Of a DNA stretch of 38,608 bases, positions 6,381 to 34,810 are shown piece by piece. The position numbers and the translations under genes were made by a program. The notes under the pieces are model-generated. The model saw only the letters and a list, made by a program, of their open reading frames with translations. It made no database searches and was not told where the DNA came from. Source of the stretch: an uncultured Muriicola sp. (GTDB taxonomy: Bacteria > Bacteroidota > Bacteroidia > Flavobacteriales > Flavobacteriaceae); the NCBI RefSeq assembly GCF_947258935.1, contig NZ_CAMYKH010000029.1:1-38608 (forward strand), in the 5' to 3' direction. The first letter of the stretch is position 1, and each line of letters begins with the position of its first letter.

Positions 6381-7241
6381 ATGAAAAAGAGTCTCAAAAC
6401 ATTGAACTACGCAGGAGGAATGCTTATGGCAGCTGCTTTGCTATTTTCCTGTAACAAAGAAGAATCCACACCATTTGTGGAACAAGAAACATTTGAAGTG
6501 GCCGAACTGAAGGCCAGTGATGAATCTGAATTGATCTCCGAGGAGATCTTGAACATCGCTGAAGATGTCTATACTTCAGATGAGGTGATATCCACTTCCA
6601 AGTTTTCTTACAATTCAGATTTCTTACCAGATTGTGTTACCATTACCACAGTTGTAACCTCAACGACCAAAGAACGTACTATCGATTTTGGTGAAGGCTG
6701 TGAATTACCCAACGGTAATGTGCTTAGTGGCATCATTTTTCTTAGCTACGCCAAAGACATGGAACAAGCCACTAATACCCTAAGTCTTTCTTTGGAAAAC
6801 TTTACATTTAATGGTGTAGCCATTGAAGGAGGTGCTTCTATAGAAAGGATGCGTTCTAATGAGAACGGTAATCCACAATCTGATGCTAACGCCAGCTATT
6901 CTGCCATCTGGCCAAATGGCGACACCGCCAGCTTTTCCGGGAACAGAACAAGAGAATGGATAGAAGGAGTTGGAACCGGTTTTTGGGGAGACAATGTGTA
7001 TCTTATTTCCGGAAAAGGAACCTTTACCGGTCCACAGGGGAATGTCTTTATGAAAGAGACGGTTACCCCATTGCGAAGAGAACTATCTTGCCGATTTATT
7101 GTAAGTGGAATTTTGAATTTTTCAAGAAATGATGCTACTGCTAGTCTCGACTTTGGTGATGGAAGTTGCGATGCCAAAGGGATGCTGACGTATCCTGACG
7201 GTACAACAAAGGAGATCTTTCTTCGAAGATTTAAAAACTAA
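6381..7241 (+). CDS. Putative lipoprotein of unknown function
   Basis: This 286-residue protein has a lipoprotein signal peptide: a lysine-rich start, a hydrophobic stretch and the lipobox LLFSC with Cys24 as the lipidation site. A Glu/Ser-rich linker (about 25-65) follows. The mature part carries two related motifs, DFGEGC followed by LPNG near residue 110 and DFGDGSC followed by YPDG near residue 262, so it may consist of two similar beta-rich halves. No catalytic motif is visible and I do not recognise a named family. It is monocistronic, divergent from rpsO, with a perfect terminator 20 bases after its stop. Confidence 0.8.
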   Translation: MKKSLKTLNYAGGMLMAAALLFSCNKEESTPFVEQETFEVAELKASDESELISEEILNIAEDVYTSDEVISTSKFSYNSDFLPDCVTITTVVTSTTKERTIDFGEGCELPNGNVLSGIIFLSYAKDMEQATNTLSLSLENFTFNGVAIEGGASIERMRSNENGNPQSDANASYSAIWPNGDTASFSGNRTREWIEGVGTGFWGDNVYLISGKGTFTGPQGNVFMKETVTPLRRELSCRFIVSGILNFSRNDATASLDFGDGSCDAKGMLTYPDGTTKEIFLRRFKN

Positions 7242-7260
7242 TTGTTTGTTACTAAATGAA

Positions 7261-7291
7261 AAGGCCCTGAATTCATCAGGGCCTTTTTTTT
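7261..7291. terminator. Bidirectional terminator between lipoprotein gene and accD
   Basis: A perfect 10-bp stem (AAGGCCCTGA/TCAGGGCCTT, 7261-7270 and 7276-7285) with a 5-base loop is followed by an 8-T run on plus; the minus side has T4. It serves the lipoprotein gene and probably also accD. Its T-run touches the ancestral accD stop codon (7290-7292). Confidence 0.92.
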
Positions 7292-7385
7292 ATCTTACCG
7301 GATTATTTTCAATCAGATCTATATAGAGATTGATCTTCTTTTTCAATTCACTTCTGTGCACAATAAAGTCTAGAAATCCATGCTC
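7290..7385 (-). pseudogene. accD: Displaced 3' end of accD (out of frame)
   Basis: In the frame ending at a TAA at 7290-7292, the minus strand reads [17 protein letters not shown] and continues to ...ENNPVR. This is the usual AccD C-terminus. It is out of frame with the main accD reading frame, which stops at 7370-7372. It begins (GAG, 7383-7385) where the main frame still reads VVKE, so about 17 residues normally between these segments are missing and the remaining length is not a multiple of three. Confidence 0.8.
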
Positions 7386-8095
7386 TCTTTTACTACGCGA
7401 GGTCCGGCAAATCCTATTAAGGCACCGGGTTCTGATATATTGATATCACCCAACATGGCATAAGAGGCTGTAGTGCCTCCTGTGGTAGGATCTGTACACA
7501 ATGAAATATATGGGATCTGCGCTTCAGCCAGCTGTGCCAGTTTTGCAGAGGTCTTGGCCAATTGCATCAAAGAAAGAGCGGCTTCCATCATCCTTGCACC
7601 ACCTGACTTTGAAATCATAACAAAAGGCACCTTTTTTTTGATGGCTACATCAATGGCACGTGCGATCTTTTCTCCCACAACACTTCCCATAGATCCCCCT
7701 ATAAAGGTGAAATCCATACAGGCCACCACCAGGTCTTTGCCCATAGATTTGCCTATAGCAGTTCGTACGGCATCCTTTAATCCTGTCTTCTTTTGTGCTG
7801 CCTTTAAACGATCGCTGTACTTCTTGGTGTCCTCAAACTTTAGTGGATCCTTGGAAGTTAGTTTTGTGTCTAATTCGCTGAACTTGTTGTCGTCAAAAAG
7901 AATTTCAAAATATTCCTTACTACCAATACGTACATGGTAATCATCTTCCGGACTTACGTAAAAGTTCTTTGCGAGCTCATCGTATTCTACGATCTTCCCC
8001 GTTGGGGACTTATACCAAAGCCCTCTGGGGGTATCTTTCTTCTGCTCCGTGGCAGTTTGAATTCCTTTTTCTGTTCGTTTAAACCAAGCCGTCAT
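7370..8095 (-). CDS. accD: Acetyl-CoA carboxylase carboxyltransferase beta subunit, C-terminally truncated
   Basis: This is the beta subunit of the carboxyltransferase that moves carboxyl from carboxybiotin to acetyl-CoA, the first step of fatty acid synthesis. The N-terminus ([14 protein letters not shown], then [11 protein letters not shown]) and the crotonase-fold core with [17 protein letters not shown] and [16 protein letters not shown] are typical. The four zinc-ribbon cysteines of the E. coli protein are absent, as I recall for Bacteroidota AccD. The frame ends after GPRVVKE with SMDF and a stop, giving 241 residues against the roughly 280 expected. The missing C-terminus is readable in another frame (7290-7385). 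It lies 30 bases downstream of fbaA and is probably co-transcribed. Either a real frameshifting deletion or a sequence error. Confidence 0.9.
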
Positions 8096-8125: not shown

Positions 8126-9193
8126 TTATAGGGTATTCACATTATTTAGATCCTCAAAGGCCTTCTTTAATCGAGCTACAAAAGTATTTTCTCCTTCGCG
8201 TAACCAAACCCTGGGATCGTAATATTTCTTATTGGGTTGATCATCTCCATCAGGATTACCGATCTGAGTTTGTAAATAAGCTCCTTTCCCCTGAATATAA
8301 TCCCTGATCCCTTCCATAAAAGCGTACTGCAGGTCGGTATCAATATTCATCTTTATAACTCCATATCCAATACCTTCTCTAATTTCTTCTACTGTAGAAC
8401 CAGATCCACCGTGAAATACAAAATCTATATGATTGTGTTCTACACCGTATTTCTTTGTAATGTACTCCTGAGAATTTTTAAGGATCTTAGGAGTAAGTTT
8501 TACATTCCCCGGTTTGTATACCCCATGTACATTTCCAAAGGCTGCGGCAATTGTGAATCTGTGGCTAACTTTGGATAACTCTTCGTAGGCATAGGCTACT
8601 TCTTCGGGTTGGGTGTACAACTTAGAATCATCTACATCCGTGTTATCTACTCCATCTTCTTCTCCTCCTGTTATTCCGAGTTCAATTTCGAGGGTCATGT
8701 CAATTTTACTCATTCTGGATAGATACTCCTTACAGATCCCGATATTCTCTTCCAGGGGTTCTTCCGATAGATCAATCATATGTGAGCTAAAGAGCGATTT
8801 CCCTGTTGCCTTATAATGAGCTTCACTCGCATCAAGAAGTCCATCTATCCATGGAAGAAGTTTTTTGGCACAATGATCTGTATGTAAGATTACAGTGGCA
8901 CCATATGCCTTTGCTAATTCATGAATATGTTTTGCACCGGCTATGGCACCCTTAATGGCAGCCTGCTGCCCATCATTAGAAAGGCCTTTTCCTGCATTAA
9001 ACTGAGATCCTCCATTCGAAAATTGGATGATCACCGGGGAATTAAGTGCAGCAGCAGTTTCGAGAACCGCATTTATGGTATTAGAACCTGTTACATTTAC
9101 TGCGGGAAGGGCAAATCCTTTTTCCTTGGCATAATTAAAGATCTCTTGAACTTCATTACCCGTAGCAACACCTGGTTTTATAGTATGTGACAT
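8126..9193 (-). CDS. fbaA: Class II fructose-bisphosphate aldolase
   Basis: This 355-residue zinc-dependent aldolase of the class IIA (E. coli FbaA) type cleaves fructose 1,6-bisphosphate in glycolysis and works in reverse in gluconeogenesis. Visible are the zinc/catalytic segment LHTDHCAKKLLPW, the ELGITGGEEDGVDN region, the second zinc site FGNVHGVYKPGN and the phosphate-binding VFHGGSGS followed by GVIKMNIDTD. Length is normal. The ATG at 9193 is preceded by a TACTTTTG element. accD follows 30 bases downstream on the same strand. Confidence 0.97.
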   Translation of the reverse strand: MSHTIKPGVATGNEVQEIFNYAKEKGFALPAVNVTGSNTINAVLETAAALNSPVIIQFSNGGSQFNAGKGLSNDGQQAAIKGAIAGAKHIHELAKAYGATVILHTDHCAKKLLPWIDGLLDASEAHYKATGKSLFSSHMIDLSEEPLEENIGICKEYLSRMSKIDMTLEIELGITGGEEDGVDNTDVDDSKLYTQPEEVAYAYEELSKVSHRFTIAAAFGNVHGVYKPGNVKLTPKILKNSQEYITKKYGVEHNHIDFVFHGGSGSTVEEIREGIGYGVIKMNIDTDLQYAFMEGIRDYIQGKGAYLQTQIGNPDGDDQPNKKYYDPRVWLREGENTFVARLKKAFEDLNNVNTL

Positions 9194-18313: not shown

Positions 18314-19417
18314 TTATTGATACTGCAAACTGGGATTTTTACCCAGCTCTTTCAAATGTTTGAAGTGCGAAATTATGGCTTTTCTAGTAGTTTTATATTC
18401 ATTATACGGCAAATTAAATTCTTTGGCCGTCTCTTTCACAATTTTAGAGATTTTTGTGTAATGAATATGACTGATGTTTGGAAATATATGGTGCTCAACC
18501 TGATGGTTCAATCCACCTGTAAACCAATTTACGATTCTGTTCTTTGTACCAAAATTAACGGTGGTAAACAATTGGTGAATGGCCCACGTATTTTTCATGG
18601 TTCCATCTTTTTCGGGTAGCGGAGTTTCTGCCTCATCCACCACATGCGCAAGCTGAAAAACTACGCTTAAAATTACACCGGCTACATAATGCATAATAAA
18701 AAAGCCTAAAAGTATTTTCCACCAGGAAATACTTAGCACTAACATGGGTAAAACAATCCATATGGAGAGATAAATGGCCTTGGTGCCTAAAAGAACACTC
18801 CAATTTAGGAATGGATTGGGAAATTTACCATAGGAAAGCTTTCGCTTAGTATACCGGTACATCTGCTGAAAATCTGTCGTAATGGCCCAGTTGAATGTAA
18901 GCAAGCCATACAGGAAAACAGAATAAAAATGTTGAAATTTATGCAACTTGTGCCATTTGGCATGTTTGGAGAAACGCAGTACCCTTCCTGCTTCCAGATC
19001 TTCATCATGATTGTGAATATTGGTATAGGTGTGGTGTAGTACATTGTGTTGTACCTGCCAGTTATATACATTTCCGGCAAGGATGTAGATGCTGCTCCCC
19101 ATAAGTTTATTTACCCATTTTTTTGTGGAATATGAGCCATGGTTGCCATCGTGCATTACATTCATGCCTACTCCGGCCATCCCAACACCCATGGTAATGG
19201 ATAGTAATAAATTTGCCCAGTTAGGCAAATTGAGGGTAAGAATCAAAAAGTAAGGTGCTAGAAAAAGAGAAAACATTACAGCTGTTTTTAGGTGCAGCTT
19301 CCAGTTGCCTGTCTTCTTTAAATTGTTGTCTGCAAAGTACGCATTCACTCGTTTATTAACGGTTCGAAAGAAATTTGCAGAGTCTTTCCTAGAAAATTTT
19401 ATAGTAGTTTTCTCCAT
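18314..19417 (-). CDS. Membrane fatty acid desaturase
   Basis: This 367-residue integral-membrane di-iron enzyme introduces double bonds into acyl chains, probably for membrane fluidity. All three histidine boxes are present: HDGNH (89-93), HNVLHH (124-129) and QVEHH (307-311). Hydrophobic segments lie at about 45-85, 105-120, 168-180 and 215-260. The QVEHH form of the third box is typical of front-end and related acyl-lipid/acyl-CoA desaturases. The regiospecificity cannot be read from sequence. There is no fused cytochrome b5 domain. It is first gene of a two-gene unit with the aminotransferase; a near-consensus TATCTTTA lies upstream. Confidence 0.93.
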   Translation of the reverse strand: MEKTTIKFSRKDSANFFRTVNKRVNAYFADNNLKKTGNWKLHLKTAVMFSLFLAPYFLILTLNLPNWANLLLSITMGVGMAGVGMNVMHDGNHGSYSTKKWVNKLMGSSIYILAGNVYNWQVQHNVLHHTYTNIHNHDEDLEAGRVLRFSKHAKWHKLHKFQHFYSVFLYGLLTFNWAITTDFQQMYRYTKRKLSYGKFPNPFLNWSVLLGTKAIYLSIWIVLPMLVLSISWWKILLGFFIMHYVAGVILSVVFQLAHVVDEAETPLPEKDGTMKNTWAIHQLFTTVNFGTKNRIVNWFTGGLNHQVEHHIFPNISHIHYTKISKIVKETAKEFNLPYNEYKTTRKAIISHFKHLKELGKNPSLQYQ

Positions 19418-19512
19418 AAGTTTGGATTCAAAGCCGTAAAGATAACGTAATATCTTGCTTTATAATGCCCGGTAAGTCATAAAATATGATTAATAAATGC
19501 CACTAATTATGG

Positions 19513-19520
19513 TATTTTTG
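19513..19520 (+). promoter_or_regulatory. Candidate -7 promoter element for rsmG (TATTTTTG)
   Basis: It is an exact TAnnTTTG match ending 18 bases upstream of the rsmG start, in the divergent gap with the desaturase gene. No clear -33 TTG. Confidence 0.45.
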
Positions 19521-19538
19521 TTCGAATAAAAAGCAGGA

Positions 19539-20195
19539 ATGAACCCAGAGATCATCTATCATTACTTTCCGGAACTCTCAGAATTACAAAAGGAACAATT
19601 TGGGCTACTAGGTGTACTATACCAAGATTGGAATAAAAAGATCAATGTTGTCTCCCGTAAGGATATAGATGAATTGTACCTCAGACATGTGTTGCACAGT
19701 CTGGGAATTGCCAAGGTGATGGCTTTTCAACCCGGAACTCGCATATTGGATGTTGGAACAGGAGGTGGATTTCCCGGTATTCCTCTGGCCATTCTATTTC
19801 CTGAGATCCATGTAACTATGGTAGATGCTATAGGGAAAAAGATACGGGTAGTACAGGAAGTAGTGGAGGGATTGGGAATCACGAATACAAGGGCTTTACA
19901 TACCAGAGTGGAGGACTTGGAGGAACAATTCGATTTTATTGTTAGCAGGGCGGTGGCAGCTATGCCTACTTTTGTTCATTGGGTAAAGGGAAAGATTAAT
20001 AAACACTCTACCCATTCCAAGAAAAATGGGATACTATACCTAAAAGGAGGTGATTTAACGGAGGAGTTGAAGATCTATAGGAATGCGGAGATTTTTGACT
20101 TATCCCAATACTTTTCAGAAGAATTTTTTGAAACCAAAAAGGTGGTGTATCTACCTTTGAAATATCATGGACTCTTAAAAACTAAACATCGATAG
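19539..20195 (+). CDS. rsmG: 16S rRNA (guanine-N7)-methyltransferase RsmG
   Basis: This 218-residue class I methyltransferase makes m7G527 (E. coli numbering) in the 530 loop of 16S rRNA. The N-terminal segment LYQDWNKKINVVSRKDIDEL matches the family substrate region. Motif I reads ILDVGTGGGFPGIPLAI, followed by DAIGKK and SRAVAAMPTFVHW. Length is normal. It is transcribed alone, divergent from the desaturase gene. Its 3' end overlaps by 21 bases a possible small minus-strand frame (20175-20303). Confidence 0.96.
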   Translation: MNPEIIYHYFPELSELQKEQFGLLGVLYQDWNKKINVVSRKDIDELYLRHVLHSLGIAKVMAFQPGTRILDVGTGGGFPGIPLAILFPEIHVTMVDAIGKKIRVVQEVVEGLGITNTRALHTRVEDLEEQFDFIVSRAVAAMPTFVHWVKGKINKHSTHSKKNGILYLKGGDLTEELKIYRNAEIFDLSQYFSEEFFETKKVVYLPLKYHGLLKTKHR

Positions 20196-20303
20196 ATAGG
20201 AGTGTCGGCACTTACGCGCGTATTGTACTACAGCCGAATGCACAGTAGTCCAAAGTCCCTTATCTTGACTCCCCATATTCTCTGAATTTTTTCTTACTTC
20301 CAT
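20175..20303 (-). CDS. Possible 42-residue small protein
   Basis: An ATG at 20303 opens a frame beginning MEVRKNSENMGSQDKG and ending SYLSMFSF. A consensus -7 element TAAATTTG sits 22 bases upstream, which is why the frame is worth listing. It has no signal peptide or recognised motif; two lysine/arginine-rich stretches flank a short hydrophobic middle. It overlaps the rsmG 3' end in antisense. The frame could be chance, and I do not recognise it. Confidence 0.25.
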   Translation of the reverse strand: MEVRKNSENMGSQDKGLWTTVHSAVVQYARKCRHSYLSMFSF

Positions 20304-20325
20304 AGGAATTTAGATTTACAATATT

Positions 20326-20333
20326 CAAATTTA
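20326..20333 (-). promoter_or_regulatory. Orphan -7 promoter element (TAAATTTG) in the rsmG-pruA gap
   Basis: It matches TAnnTTTG on the minus strand although no annotated gene starts there. It could drive the 42-residue frame or an antisense RNA over the rsmG 3' end. TTG lies 11 bases upstream, shorter than usual. Confidence 0.3.
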
Positions 20334-20433
20334 CGCAAAAATTACAATTAATTAACGTTAAATTTACATTAATAGTATGTGAATGCTGGTATAATACCCC
20401 TTAACATACTAGAAAAGTGTTAGAAAGGAGCAC

Positions 20434-20466
20434 AAAAAAAACCCTAAGAGATTTTCTTAAGGGTTT
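20434..20466 (-). terminator. Rho-independent terminator after pruA
   Basis: On the minus strand AAACCCTTAAGA pairs with TCTTAGGGTTT (one bulged T), followed by a T8 run. It starts 26 bases past the pruA stop. Confidence 0.88.
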
Positions 20467-20492
20467 CATTATTGGTATGTGTAAAGGTGACT

Positions 20493-22121
20493 TTATCCCA
20501 AAAATGGATATCTATAATCTTCAGGAGTCACAAAAGTTTCTTTGATCAATCTAGGGGATACCCATCGCATTAAGTTTTGAGCAGATCCTGCTTTGTCATT
20601 GGTGCCCGATGCCCTGGCACCTCCAAATGGTTGTTGTCCAACTACCGCTCCGGTTGGTTTGTCATTAATATAAAAATTCCCTGCGCAATTCTGCAGTACT
20701 TTAGTGGCTTCTTCTATGGCGTATCTGTCTGTAGCCATCACTGCTCCTGTTAAGGCATAAGGAGAAGTGCTGTCTACTAATTTCAATACCTGGCTCCATT
20801 CTTTATCATTATAGACATAGATCGTAACCACAGGACCAAATAATTCCGTTTCCATAGTTACATAATGGGGATCTGTTGTAAGAATAATTGTGGGTTCAAT
20901 AAAATATCCTTTAGATTTATCATATCCTCCGCCGGCCACAATCGCAGCTTCTTTATCCTTCTTTGCTCTCTCAATATAGCTTACTAATTTGTCAAAAGAA
21001 CCTTCATGGATCACAGCTGTAATAAAATTGCTCATATCCTCGGGTGACCCCGGAGGATTTAAGGAATCGAGGTCTTTCTTCGCTTCAGATAAAATTTCAT
21101 CGGCCGTAGATTTTGGTAAATAAACCCGCGATGCCGCGCTACATTTTTGTCCCTGGAATTCAAATGCTCCGCGAACAATGGCAGTGGCTACCTGCCTGGG
21201 CTTAGCCGTGGGATGTGCCACAATAAAATCCTTGCCCCCTGTTTCCCCTACTATCCTGGGATAGGTCTTGTATTTGTGGATATTGTTCCCTATTTGGGTC
21301 CATAAATTCTTGAATACATCTGTTGAACCCGTAAAGTGAATTCCGGAGAAATCCGGGTGCGCCAGAAGGGTCTCAGTGATCATCACAGGATCGCCATAGA
21401 TCACATTGATAACTCCATCGGGTAGTCCGGCCTCTTTGAAAACATCCACGAGGATCTTGGCCGAAAATATTTGACTGTCACTTGGCTTCCAAACTACTAC
21501 ATTTCCCATCATGGCTGCACTTGCAGGTAAATTCCCTGCAATAGCTGTAAAATTGAATGGGGTAATGGCATAAACAAATCCTTCCAAAGGTCTGTATTCT
21601 ACCCGGTTCCAAATTCCTTCTGCTGAATCTGGTTGCTCCTGATAGATCTGAGACATATATTCCACATTGAATCTAAGGAAGTCTATAAATTCACAAGCGG
21701 CATCTATCTCTGCCTGGTGAATGGTCTTGGATTGAGCTATCATGGTAGCTGCATTGATCTTAGCCCTGTAAGGTCCGGCTACCAATTCTGCTGCCTTTAA
21801 AAAGATCGCAGCGCGCTGTTCCCAGGCAAGATCTGCCCATTCACTTCTGGCCTCTAGGGCCACATTGATGGCCTCTGTTACGTGTTTCTTTGCTGCTATA
21901 TGATACTGACCAACTTTGTGCTTGTGGTCATGGGGAGGTGAAAGGGGTTTTGTATTCCCTGTTCTGATCTCTTTTGAGCCAATAAATAAAGGAATGTCTG
22001 CTGCTCCTTTAAAATATGCCTTGTATTGTTTTAAAACGGCCTCTCTTTCGGGAGATCCTGGAGCAAAGCCCTTAATAGGTTCATTAACTGCTACTGGTAC
22101 TTGAAAAAACCCTTTACCCAT
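20493..22121 (-). CDS. pruA: L-glutamate gamma-semialdehyde (1-pyrroline-5-carboxylate) dehydrogenase
   Basis: This 542-residue aldehyde dehydrogenase oxidises glutamate semialdehyde to glutamate with NAD+, the second step of proline catabolism. The family start KGFFQVPVAVNEPIKGFAPGS is present. Further along are ITPFNFTAIAGNLPASAAMMGN, the catalytic-region GETGGKDF and the nucleophile Cys in FQGQKCSAASR, then FGPVVTIYVY. It is the stand-alone monofunctional form; no proline dehydrogenase domain is fused and none is encoded nearby. It has its own TACCTTTG element upstream and a terminator downstream. Confidence 0.96.
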   Translation of the reverse strand: MGKGFFQVPVAVNEPIKGFAPGSPEREAVLKQYKAYFKGAADIPLFIGSKEIRTGNTKPLSPPHDHKHKVGQYHIAAKKHVTEAINVALEARSEWADLAWEQRAAIFLKAAELVAGPYRAKINAATMIAQSKTIHQAEIDAACEFIDFLRFNVEYMSQIYQEQPDSAEGIWNRVEYRPLEGFVYAITPFNFTAIAGNLPASAAMMGNVVVWKPSDSQIFSAKILVDVFKEAGLPDGVINVIYGDPVMITETLLAHPDFSGIHFTGSTDVFKNLWTQIGNNIHKYKTYPRIVGETGGKDFIVAHPTAKPRQVATAIVRGAFEFQGQKCSAASRVYLPKSTADEILSEAKKDLDSLNPPGSPEDMSNFITAVIHEGSFDKLVSYIERAKKDKEAAIVAGGGYDKSKGYFIEPTIILTTDPHYVTMETELFGPVVTIYVYNDKEWSQVLKLVDSTSPYALTGAVMATDRYAIEEATKVLQNCAGNFYINDKPTGAVVGQQPFGGARASGTNDKAGSAQNLMRWVSPRLIKETFVTPEDYRYPFLG

Positions 22122-32445: not shown

Positions 32446-33264
32446 TTACAGCTGCAACTTAGAAGTTCTGTATGCGTCTTCTTCATCACTTTTAATGCCT
32501 AGTGCATCATAAATATATTGAAAGGTAGAAAGGAGTTCGGGTTTGCCGTTGATCAGGGCAATATCATGTTCAAAATGGGCGCTGGGTTTCCCATCTGCAG
32601 TCAGGATGGTCCAACCATCCTTCAATTGTTTTATTCTTCTCGTACCCATGTTCACCATAGGTTCTATGGCCACTACCATGCCTTCCACAAATTTTTTTCC
32701 TCTTCCTCTTTTCCCATAATTGGGCATTTCAGGGGCTTCATGAAGCTTTTTTCCCAATCCGTGGCCTACCAGTTCGCGTACAATGCCATAACCATGAGCT
32801 TCACAATACTGTTGTATGGCATACCCAACGTCACCTACACGGTTTCCGATTTTGAAGTGCTCTATCCCTACATAAAGAGATTCCTTGGTGATCTTTAATA
32901 GTTTTTTGGTTTCGGGGGCAACTTCACCAACTTCAAAGGTGTAGGCATGATCGCCATAAAAATCATTTTTTAAGGCTCCGCAATCTACGGAGAGTATGTC
33001 TCCATCCTTTAAAGGTTCATCGCTCGGTATTCCATGTACTACCTGTGCATTAGGACTTAGATTTAGTGTATTAGGAAAGTCGTACATCCCTAAAAATCCG
33101 GGCGCTGCCCCGTGATCCCTGATAAAGGTTTCGGCCAGTTCATCCAGATATAATCCTGTAACCCCAGGTTTGATCTCGGAAGCCAACATTCCCAATGTTT
33201 TGGAAACTATGAGTGCGCTTTCGCGCATTAGTTCAATTTCTTCCGATGTTTTTACTACGATCAT
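32446..33264 (-). CDS. map: Methionine aminopeptidase, type I
   Basis: This 272-residue metallopeptidase removes the N-terminal methionine from new proteins. The pita-bread fold ligands are visible: the first aspartate in LSVDCGALKNDFYGDHAYTF (two Asp), His in ELVGHGLGKKLHE, then MVVAIEPMVNMG (Glu) and SAHFEHDIALI (Glu-containing). Asn-rich LNLSPNAQVVHGIPSD is also typical. There is no N-terminal zinc-finger extension. It lies 22 bases after gpmI and 15 before the methyltransferase gene. Confidence 0.96.
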   Translation of the reverse strand: MIVVKTSEEIELMRESALIVSKTLGMLASEIKPGVTGLYLDELAETFIRDHGAAPGFLGMYDFPNTLNLSPNAQVVHGIPSDEPLKDGDILSVDCGALKNDFYGDHAYTFEVGEVAPETKKLLKITKESLYVGIEHFKIGNRVGDVGYAIQQYCEAHGYGIVRELVGHGLGKKLHEAPEMPNYGKRGRGKKFVEGMVVAIEPMVNMGTRRIKQLKDGWTILTADGKPSAHFEHDIALINGKPELLSTFQYIYDALGIKSDEEDAYRTSKLQL

Positions 33265-33286
33265 ATTTTACCTGCTTCCTGTAATT

Positions 33287-34810
33287 TTAAACCAGTGATT
33301 TTTGAGTCATGGCATTTGGTTGATGCAGACCCATCATATGAAGGATGGTTGGTGCTATATCACCTAAGACCCCGTTTTTTACTGCTTTTATGTCCTTGTC
33401 TACTACTATCAGAGGCACTGGGTTGGTGGTATGAGCTGTATTAGCACTTCCATCTGGATTTATCATGGTATCACAATTCCCATGATCTGCAATGATAAGG
33501 GTGCTATAGCCATTTTCCAAACCGGCGGTAACTACAGCTTCGGCACAACTATCAACCGTTTCCACCGCTTTTATAGCAGCTTCCATTACACCGGTATGCC
33601 CAACCATATCCGGATTTGCAAAATTTAGACAGACAAAATCGGCTTCACCTTTTTTTAATTCCGGGATGATAGCATCTCTGATATCGTATGCGCTCATTTC
33701 CGGTTGAAGATCATAGGTGGCTACTTTTGGGGAGGGGCACATAATGCGCGATTCACCATCAAAGGGAACTTCCCTACCTCCATTAAAGAAGAAAGTAACA
33801 TGCGGGTATTTTTCTGTTTCGGCGATACGGATTTGTTTTTTTCCCTGGTTGGCAAGGATTTCGCCAAGTGTATCATGAAGATTCTCTTTATCATAAACCA
33901 TTTTGATCCCTTTAAATGAATCGTCATAGTTGGTCATAGTCACATAGTACAGTTTCAGTGCCTTCATATGAAAATCTGGGTGATCCTTTTGTGAGAGCAC
34001 TTCTGTTAATTCACGACCTCTGTCTGTCCTGAAATTAAAAAAGATCACTACGTCGTCCTCTTTTATAGTTGTAAGTGGAGATCCCTGCTCATTAGTAACA
34101 ATAATAGGTTTCAGGAATTCGTCCGTAAGGCCATTATCATAATTTTTTTGGATACTAGAGAGAACATCTGTAGTCTTTTCTCCTTTGCCATTTACAACCA
34201 GATCGTAGGCCAATTGTACTCTTTCCCAGCGTTTATCTCTGTCCATTGCGTAATAGCGACCAATAACACTGGCGAGTTTTGCTTTCTTATCCTTACAGAA
34301 ATGAATCAGGTCTTCCATAAATCCTTTTCCACTCCTGGGATCTACATCCCGTCCATCCGTAAAAGCGTGTATAAACACATTTGTAAGCGAATTATCTTCT
34401 GCTGCAGAGATCAATCCTTTTAAATGGGTAATATGACTATGAACACCTCCATCGCTTACCAAGCCGAGTAAATGAACGTGTTTTTGATGTTTTTTCGCAT
34501 AGAGAAAAGCTTCTTTGATCACCTTCTCATCTTTTAGTTTATCCTCTTTAACCGCTTTGTTGATCTTGGCCAGATCCTGATAAACAATTCGCCCTGCCCC
34601 TAAATTCATATGGCCTACTTCACTGTTCCCCATTTGGCCTTCGGGCAGGCCTACATTCATCCCATCAGTAAGAAGGTTGCTATTGGGGTACTTTTTATAA
34701 AGAGAACTTATAAAAGGTGTTTTAGCCTGATCAATAGCAGAAACCTTTGGATCCGGAGATTTTCCCCAGCCATCAAGGATCATCAAGATCACTTTTTTAT
34801 GCATTTCCAT
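33287..34810 (-). CDS. gpmI: Cofactor-independent phosphoglycerate mutase
   Basis: This 507-residue alkaline-phosphatase-fold enzyme interconverts 3- and 2-phosphoglycerate using two Mn2+ ions. Visible are LMILDGWGKS with the first metal Asp, the phospho-serine region MGNSEVGHMNLGAGRIVYQD, HAFTDGRDVDPRSG, FFNFRTDRGRE, and the C-terminal metal sites NFANPDMVGHTG and IADHGNCD. Two near-initial ATGs exist (34810 and 34804); either gives a normal protein. A TATTTTTG element lies 23 bases upstream. It heads the gpmI-map-methyltransferase operon. Confidence 0.97.
   Translation of the reverse strand: MEMHKKVILMILDGWGKSPDPKVSAIDQAKTPFISSLYKKYPNSNLLTDGMNVGLPEGQMGNSEVGHMNLGAGRIVYQDLAKINKAVKEDKLKDEKVIKEAFLYAKKHQKHVHLLGLVSDGGVHSHITHLKGLISAAEDNSLTNVFIHAFTDGRDVDPRSGKGFMEDLIHFCKDKKAKLASVIGRYYAMDRDKRWERVQLAYDLVVNGKGEKTTDVLSSIQKNYDNGLTDEFLKPIIVTNEQGSPLTTIKEDDVVIFFNFRTDRGRELTEVLSQKDHPDFHMKALKLYYVTMTNYDDSFKGIKMVYDKENLHDTLGEILANQGKKQIRIAETEKYPHVTFFFNGGREVPFDGESRIMCPSPKVATYDLQPEMSAYDIRDAIIPELKKGEADFVCLNFANPDMVGHTGVMEAAIKAVETVDSCAEAVVTAGLENGYSTLIIADHGNCDTMINPDGSANTAHTTNPVPLIVVDKDIKAVKNGVLGDIAPTILHMMGLHQPNAMTQKSLV

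Follow-up and report, generated by a model that had tools for sequence, protein, structure and literature searches.

The window analysed here is a stretch of 38,608 nucleotides from an uncultured Muriicola sp. (assembly GCF_947258935.1, contig NZ_CAMYKH010000029.1, positions 1–38,608 of the forward strand), in which accD lies between an intact upstream gene and a terminator-like stem-loop (Table 1). AccD is the carboxyltransferase beta subunit of acetyl-CoA carboxylase; its gene is required for fatty acid synthesis and is expected to be essential. The upstream neighbour, which we take to be a class II fructose-bisphosphate aldolase, is 92–95% identical over its full length to proteins of the relatives G005 and G003, and 92% identical to one of G002 over a slightly shorter match. 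As a separate observation on the terminator, window positions 7255–7291 resemble part of the accA region of G002, with 89% identity across 37 bases.

Table 1. Features at the accD locus, in window coordinates.
Feature	Coordinates	Strand	Details
accD main frame	7370..8095	(-)	241 aa = 237 native residues + 4 foreign
Junction left by the missing 52 bases, GAGAG inside GTAGTAAAAGAGAGCATGG	7383..7387	(-)	52-column gap vs 29/29 relatives
Usual AccD C-terminus (E-HGFLDF...NNPVR*), different frame	7290..7385	(-)	conserved vs relatives
Terminator-like stem-loop between accD and convergent gene 6381-7241	7258..7288	(+), stem symmetric	one stem-loop, against a mean of 0.2 (sd 0.5) in shuffled sequence
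Intact gene upstream of accD	8126..9193	(-)	355 aa

An earlier note on this DNA had described an out-of-frame deletion truncating accD, which is true of the sequence as given. The open reading frame runs from 8095 to 7370 and its 241 codons end in VVKESMDF and a stop, retaining 237 of about 285 native residues. In the alignment exactly 52 bases, not a multiple of three, are missing relative to 29/29 relatives, and the C-terminal ~45 residues of AccD are out of frame in the assembled product. The usual C-terminus does lie just behind the main frame in another frame (7385–7290), as the note had it: a GAG codon (E) at 7385–7383 is followed by a tail frame on the minus strand from 7382 to 7293, with its stop at 7292–7290. 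Read in this shifted frame, the tail matches the AccD of four relatives at 68–79% over 38 residues and is therefore no chance match. The nine relatives compared have 18 residues between VVKE and HGF, that is 17 plus the E, so that the “about 17 residues” said to be absent was the right figure.

As assembled, the product falls short of the AccD family. Its 237 residues align to profile positions 3–238 of 285 in TIGR00515 and score 290.1 bits, below the membership cut-off of 317.45, in comparison with 347.0 and 346.4 bits for the whole proteins of two relatives (L003 and L033); the whole in-frame C-terminal segment by which we would assign a protein to AccD is likewise lacking in the present genome. 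Over the 237-residue aligned part, the AccD of the nearest relative is 97% identical. When the solved AccD chains 2f9y_B, 8uxz_D and 2f9i_B are aligned via the whole protein of L003, the lost part corresponds to their C-terminal part, and in a structure model of the L033 protein it comprises the last helices and a strand (251–279). The mean pLDDT of that model is 58.9, and that of a model of the window product is 52.9, which makes both weak evidence. At the other end of the protein, we observed that cysteine is found in none of the 23 aligned flavobacterial AccD within columns 20–60, and the window product has none there either; a limited literature search on such a cysteine-free N-terminal region gave nothing plainly on topic. 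The four cysteines of 2f9y_B in the corresponding region presumably form a zinc site.

The earlier note had proposed aligning the gene with close relatives. The 52-column gap is confined to the present genome, all 29 aligned relatives being whole, and the full AccD tail runs across the junction at 80/80 named loci (the two sets overlap in part, and one locus, L081, was found by a looser motif). The missing segment includes G240, L243, P244, F247, Q248, E251 and F252, each invariant in 23/23 aligned AccD. Across a panel of 60 genomes, 58 matched the accD query and 55, the present one included, carry accD proper, three of the matching genomes (G039, G044 and G057) having done so through large carboxyltransferases only. 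Within Flavobacteriaceae, accD was detected in 239 of 249 genomes, and in all 210 of those with a completeness of 90% or more and a contamination of 5% or less, the present genome counted; among the matches listed for the 249 genomes, that of the present genome alone ends before residue 279. G086, the one genome with two partial accD matches, has them on two contigs. No truncation like the present one was seen in the relatives aligned, at the named loci, in the 60-genome panel or among the family matches listed. Nor was the note's suggestion of a second accD copy elsewhere borne out: a search of the genome itself gave a single accD and a single copy of the tail, its other match being a large carboxyltransferase at 31% identity.

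Behind the lesion, the tail still looks selected when codon positions are compared with seven of the eight same-genus relatives (the sequence of the eighth, G007, is cut off by the edge of its contig). Second-position differences number 0 in 7/7 comparisons, and third-position differences 8–19 per 30 codons. Against the nearest relative, path averaging gives about 14 synonymous and 2 nonsynonymous changes, with one residue different, and only 1 of the 30 tail residues is unique to the present genome. An old pseudogene was rejected on this ground, since the tail behind an old lesion should have drifted. A tail that is still conserved implies instead a lesion of very recent origin, or one that is absent from the organism. 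At sites where the seven relatives agree, first-position changes unique to the present genome affect 2 of 22 sites in the tail versus 0 of 200 in the body of the gene, and one of the two alters a residue (Q to E); this may be a faint hint of relaxed constraint.

A conserved tail in a shifted frame would also fit −1 ribosomal frameshifting at A-AAA-GAG, by which a near full-length AccD lacking 17 residues would be rescued, and a one-base step back after the AAA codon does regain the tail frame through to its stop. However, we take A-AAA-GAG not to be a strong slippery site, intact relatives need no shift, and the protein so made would still lack the residues invariant in 23/23 aligned AccD; we regard such a rescue as highly improbable.

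The junction itself bears on whether the loss could have happened in the cell. The AAGAG/GAG motif to which the earlier note had drawn attention is present, but replication slippage on short repeats does not follow from it cleanly: the two stretches coding for V-K-E in relatives lie 54 bases apart, not 52, and they form an exact repeat of 8–9 bases in only two of the eight relatives checked (8 bases in L003, 9 in L010). Clean slippage between them was therefore rejected, as it would take out 54 bases and keep the frame; it does not fully explain the lesion, and a loss of 52 needs some further change. A genuine deletion that is very recent or strain-level, arising by slippage or short homology and leaving AccD inactive or weak in the affected cells, nonetheless draws on several of these observations: similar stretches sharing 8 and 9 exact bases in L003 and L010 lie at the junction, no N marks it, the conserved tail fits a very young event, and the first-position changes are concentrated in the tail (2/22) relative to the body (0/200). 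In a variant of this explanation, the sample would be mixed and the assembler would have followed a mutant path. Set against a recent deletion are the spacing of the repeats and the expected essentiality of a gene found in 210/210 good family genomes. PMC5437119 points the same way, describing a reduced-activity screen of B. subtilis acetyl-CoA carboxylase suppressor mutants in which no truncated subunits were obtained, a lack that its authors consider to agree with essentiality. Taken together, we judge a recent deletion to be rather unlikely.

The alternative is that the fault lies in the assembly, a gapped draft that totals 2.90 Mb in 155 contigs and is 94% complete. No match over the cut-off was found for accA in the present genome, and in a DNA search with the 20 kb around accA in G002, a region that, as we name its genes from translations, presumably also holds thrS, infC and rplT, only one 37-base terminator-like piece matched the present assembly. 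In the same search the accD neighbourhood of G002, used as a control, matched at 76%. The thrS protein of G002 also gave no match in the assembly, in a search without a positive control of its own. The accA region is thus missing from the assembly, and the absence of accA is uninformative about the organism.

Joins between sequence pieces are a second source of concern. Five N-runs occur in 469,148 sampled bases of the present genome, although some N may be masking rather than assembly gaps, in comparison with 1 in 1,275,000 bases of G002, 1 in 55,001 of G006, and none in 56,000 of G005 or 40,000 of G003; this exceeds the rate in the one-contig relative without being extreme. Of the five, three could be assessed, the other two, both on contig 8, being unmatched in the G002 stretches compared. 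On contig 6, 15 N stand for 34 bases in G002, a gap 19 bases short that breaks the frame of a 584-aa gene (18764–20493), which we take to encode an aromatic amino acid hydroxylase. Another run of 19 N stands for about 86 bases in G002 (~67 short), and a reading frame runs into it. The third, on contig 7 (30777–30785), consists of 9 N with the same 31 bases on either side, the pattern that overlapping but unmerged ends of two contigs would give; it was judged on its own flanks alone, and the 31-base duplication could be real. All three joins look mis-sized, the first two with one diverged relative as the yardstick and true differences in length therefore possible, and they indicate that joins in this assembly can err by tens of bases, a magnitude matching the loss in accD. 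Both kinds of fault that one would look for alongside an assembly artefact, missing regions and wrongly sized joins, are found in this assembly.

Frame breaks outside the N-runs are rare. Among 142 ORFs mapped in the comparison with G002 (33 of them in the window; best matches below 60% identity, or covered for less than 35% with no second frame, are excluded from the count), two frame breaks were accepted, namely accD and the contig-6 N-gap, making accD the only one without an N. Ten ORFs had been flagged: besides these two, six have a stop only near one or other end of the alignment, and two on contig 10, with two stops each and in one case a frame change as well, were judged to be non-coding frames. 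When window ORFs were compared with the relatives, considering matches of at least 45% identity, a split match at 33029–33713 was rejected, as its ORF lies antisense to a pair of genes whose own matches are complete. The mapped ORFs being otherwise clean, the assembly is not generally error-ridden.

The earlier note had left open whether the deletion is real or an artefact, with an assembly collapse among its options, and the evidence leans to that option short of proving it. We consider it probable that the 52-base loss is a local assembly or join error. Two pieces of accD would have been joined and the short stretch between them dropped, through a false join or collapse at or near the two similar V-K-E coding stretches and perhaps aided by them; the join would have been left unmarked, with no N, and the organism itself would have an ordinary AccD. 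This reading draws on the restriction of the gap to the present genome, the tail that is still conserved, the holes in the assembly and its mis-sized joins, from which we infer that the accD junction is a false join of the same kind. Counted against it are a junction without N, unlike the other joins; N-runs that are not unusually common; mapped ORFs that are otherwise clean; gap sizes taken from one diverged relative; and the tail's own first-position changes (2/22 versus 0/200). The lack of truncated subunits among the B. subtilis mutants of PMC5437119 speaks for this reading as well, and PMC11017572 attributes many putative pseudogenes to assembly errors. The accD case resembles such spurious pseudogenes in being a frame-broken gene of a draft assembly that is whole in relatives, and differs in that a 52-base loss is involved and that the error here is a probable one.

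If the loss is an artefact, it serves as a warning only, namely that an essential gene found broken in one draft, with a tail that looks selected, should be presumed an error. If it is real, it would show that members of the Flavobacteriaceae can lose AccD, or at least its conserved C-terminal part. That the deletion is both real and survivable, whether through a −1 frameshifted AccD without its 17 conserved residues or through a large one-chain carboxyltransferase, appears very unlikely to us; the evidence leans not to a new kind of enzyme but to an assembly error or a very recent mutation.

The second of these routes would have accA and accD both being lost, with a large one-chain carboxyltransferase beside a biotin carboxylase making malonyl-CoA instead. 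The lack of an accA match here could be read in that way, and the genome does encode two large carboxyltransferases, one of 513 aa that adjoins a 480-aa biotin carboxylase (contig 24) and another of 542 aa (contig 8). We take the large one-chain enzyme of this genome to be PccB-like. Proteins of the PccB/mmdA type (TIGR01117) share the weak similarity to AccD noted above (31%) but are separate proteins of 513–542 aa rather than a second accD; the two score 786 and 357 bits, below the TIGR01117 cut-off of 998.8. Joint loss was rejected as the explanation of the missing accA, because the accA neighbourhood of G002 and thrS are essentially unmatched in the assembly and the hole accounts for it. 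Moreover, the contig-24 type is matched in 8/8 same-genus relatives (in G007 by a weak partial match), including those with a whole accD, and the accD tail is still conserved here; replacement of AccD by such an enzyme seems to us exceedingly doubtful. The replacement does have a possible parallel outside the family, in three genomes of other families of the same order (G039, G044 and G057; 76, 99 and 97% complete). These have no accD or accA match over the cut-offs, their weak matches to the two models falling within large carboxyltransferases of 524–554 aa (G039:C8, G044:C34 and G057:C56), and they may make malonyl-CoA via the large one-chain enzyme.
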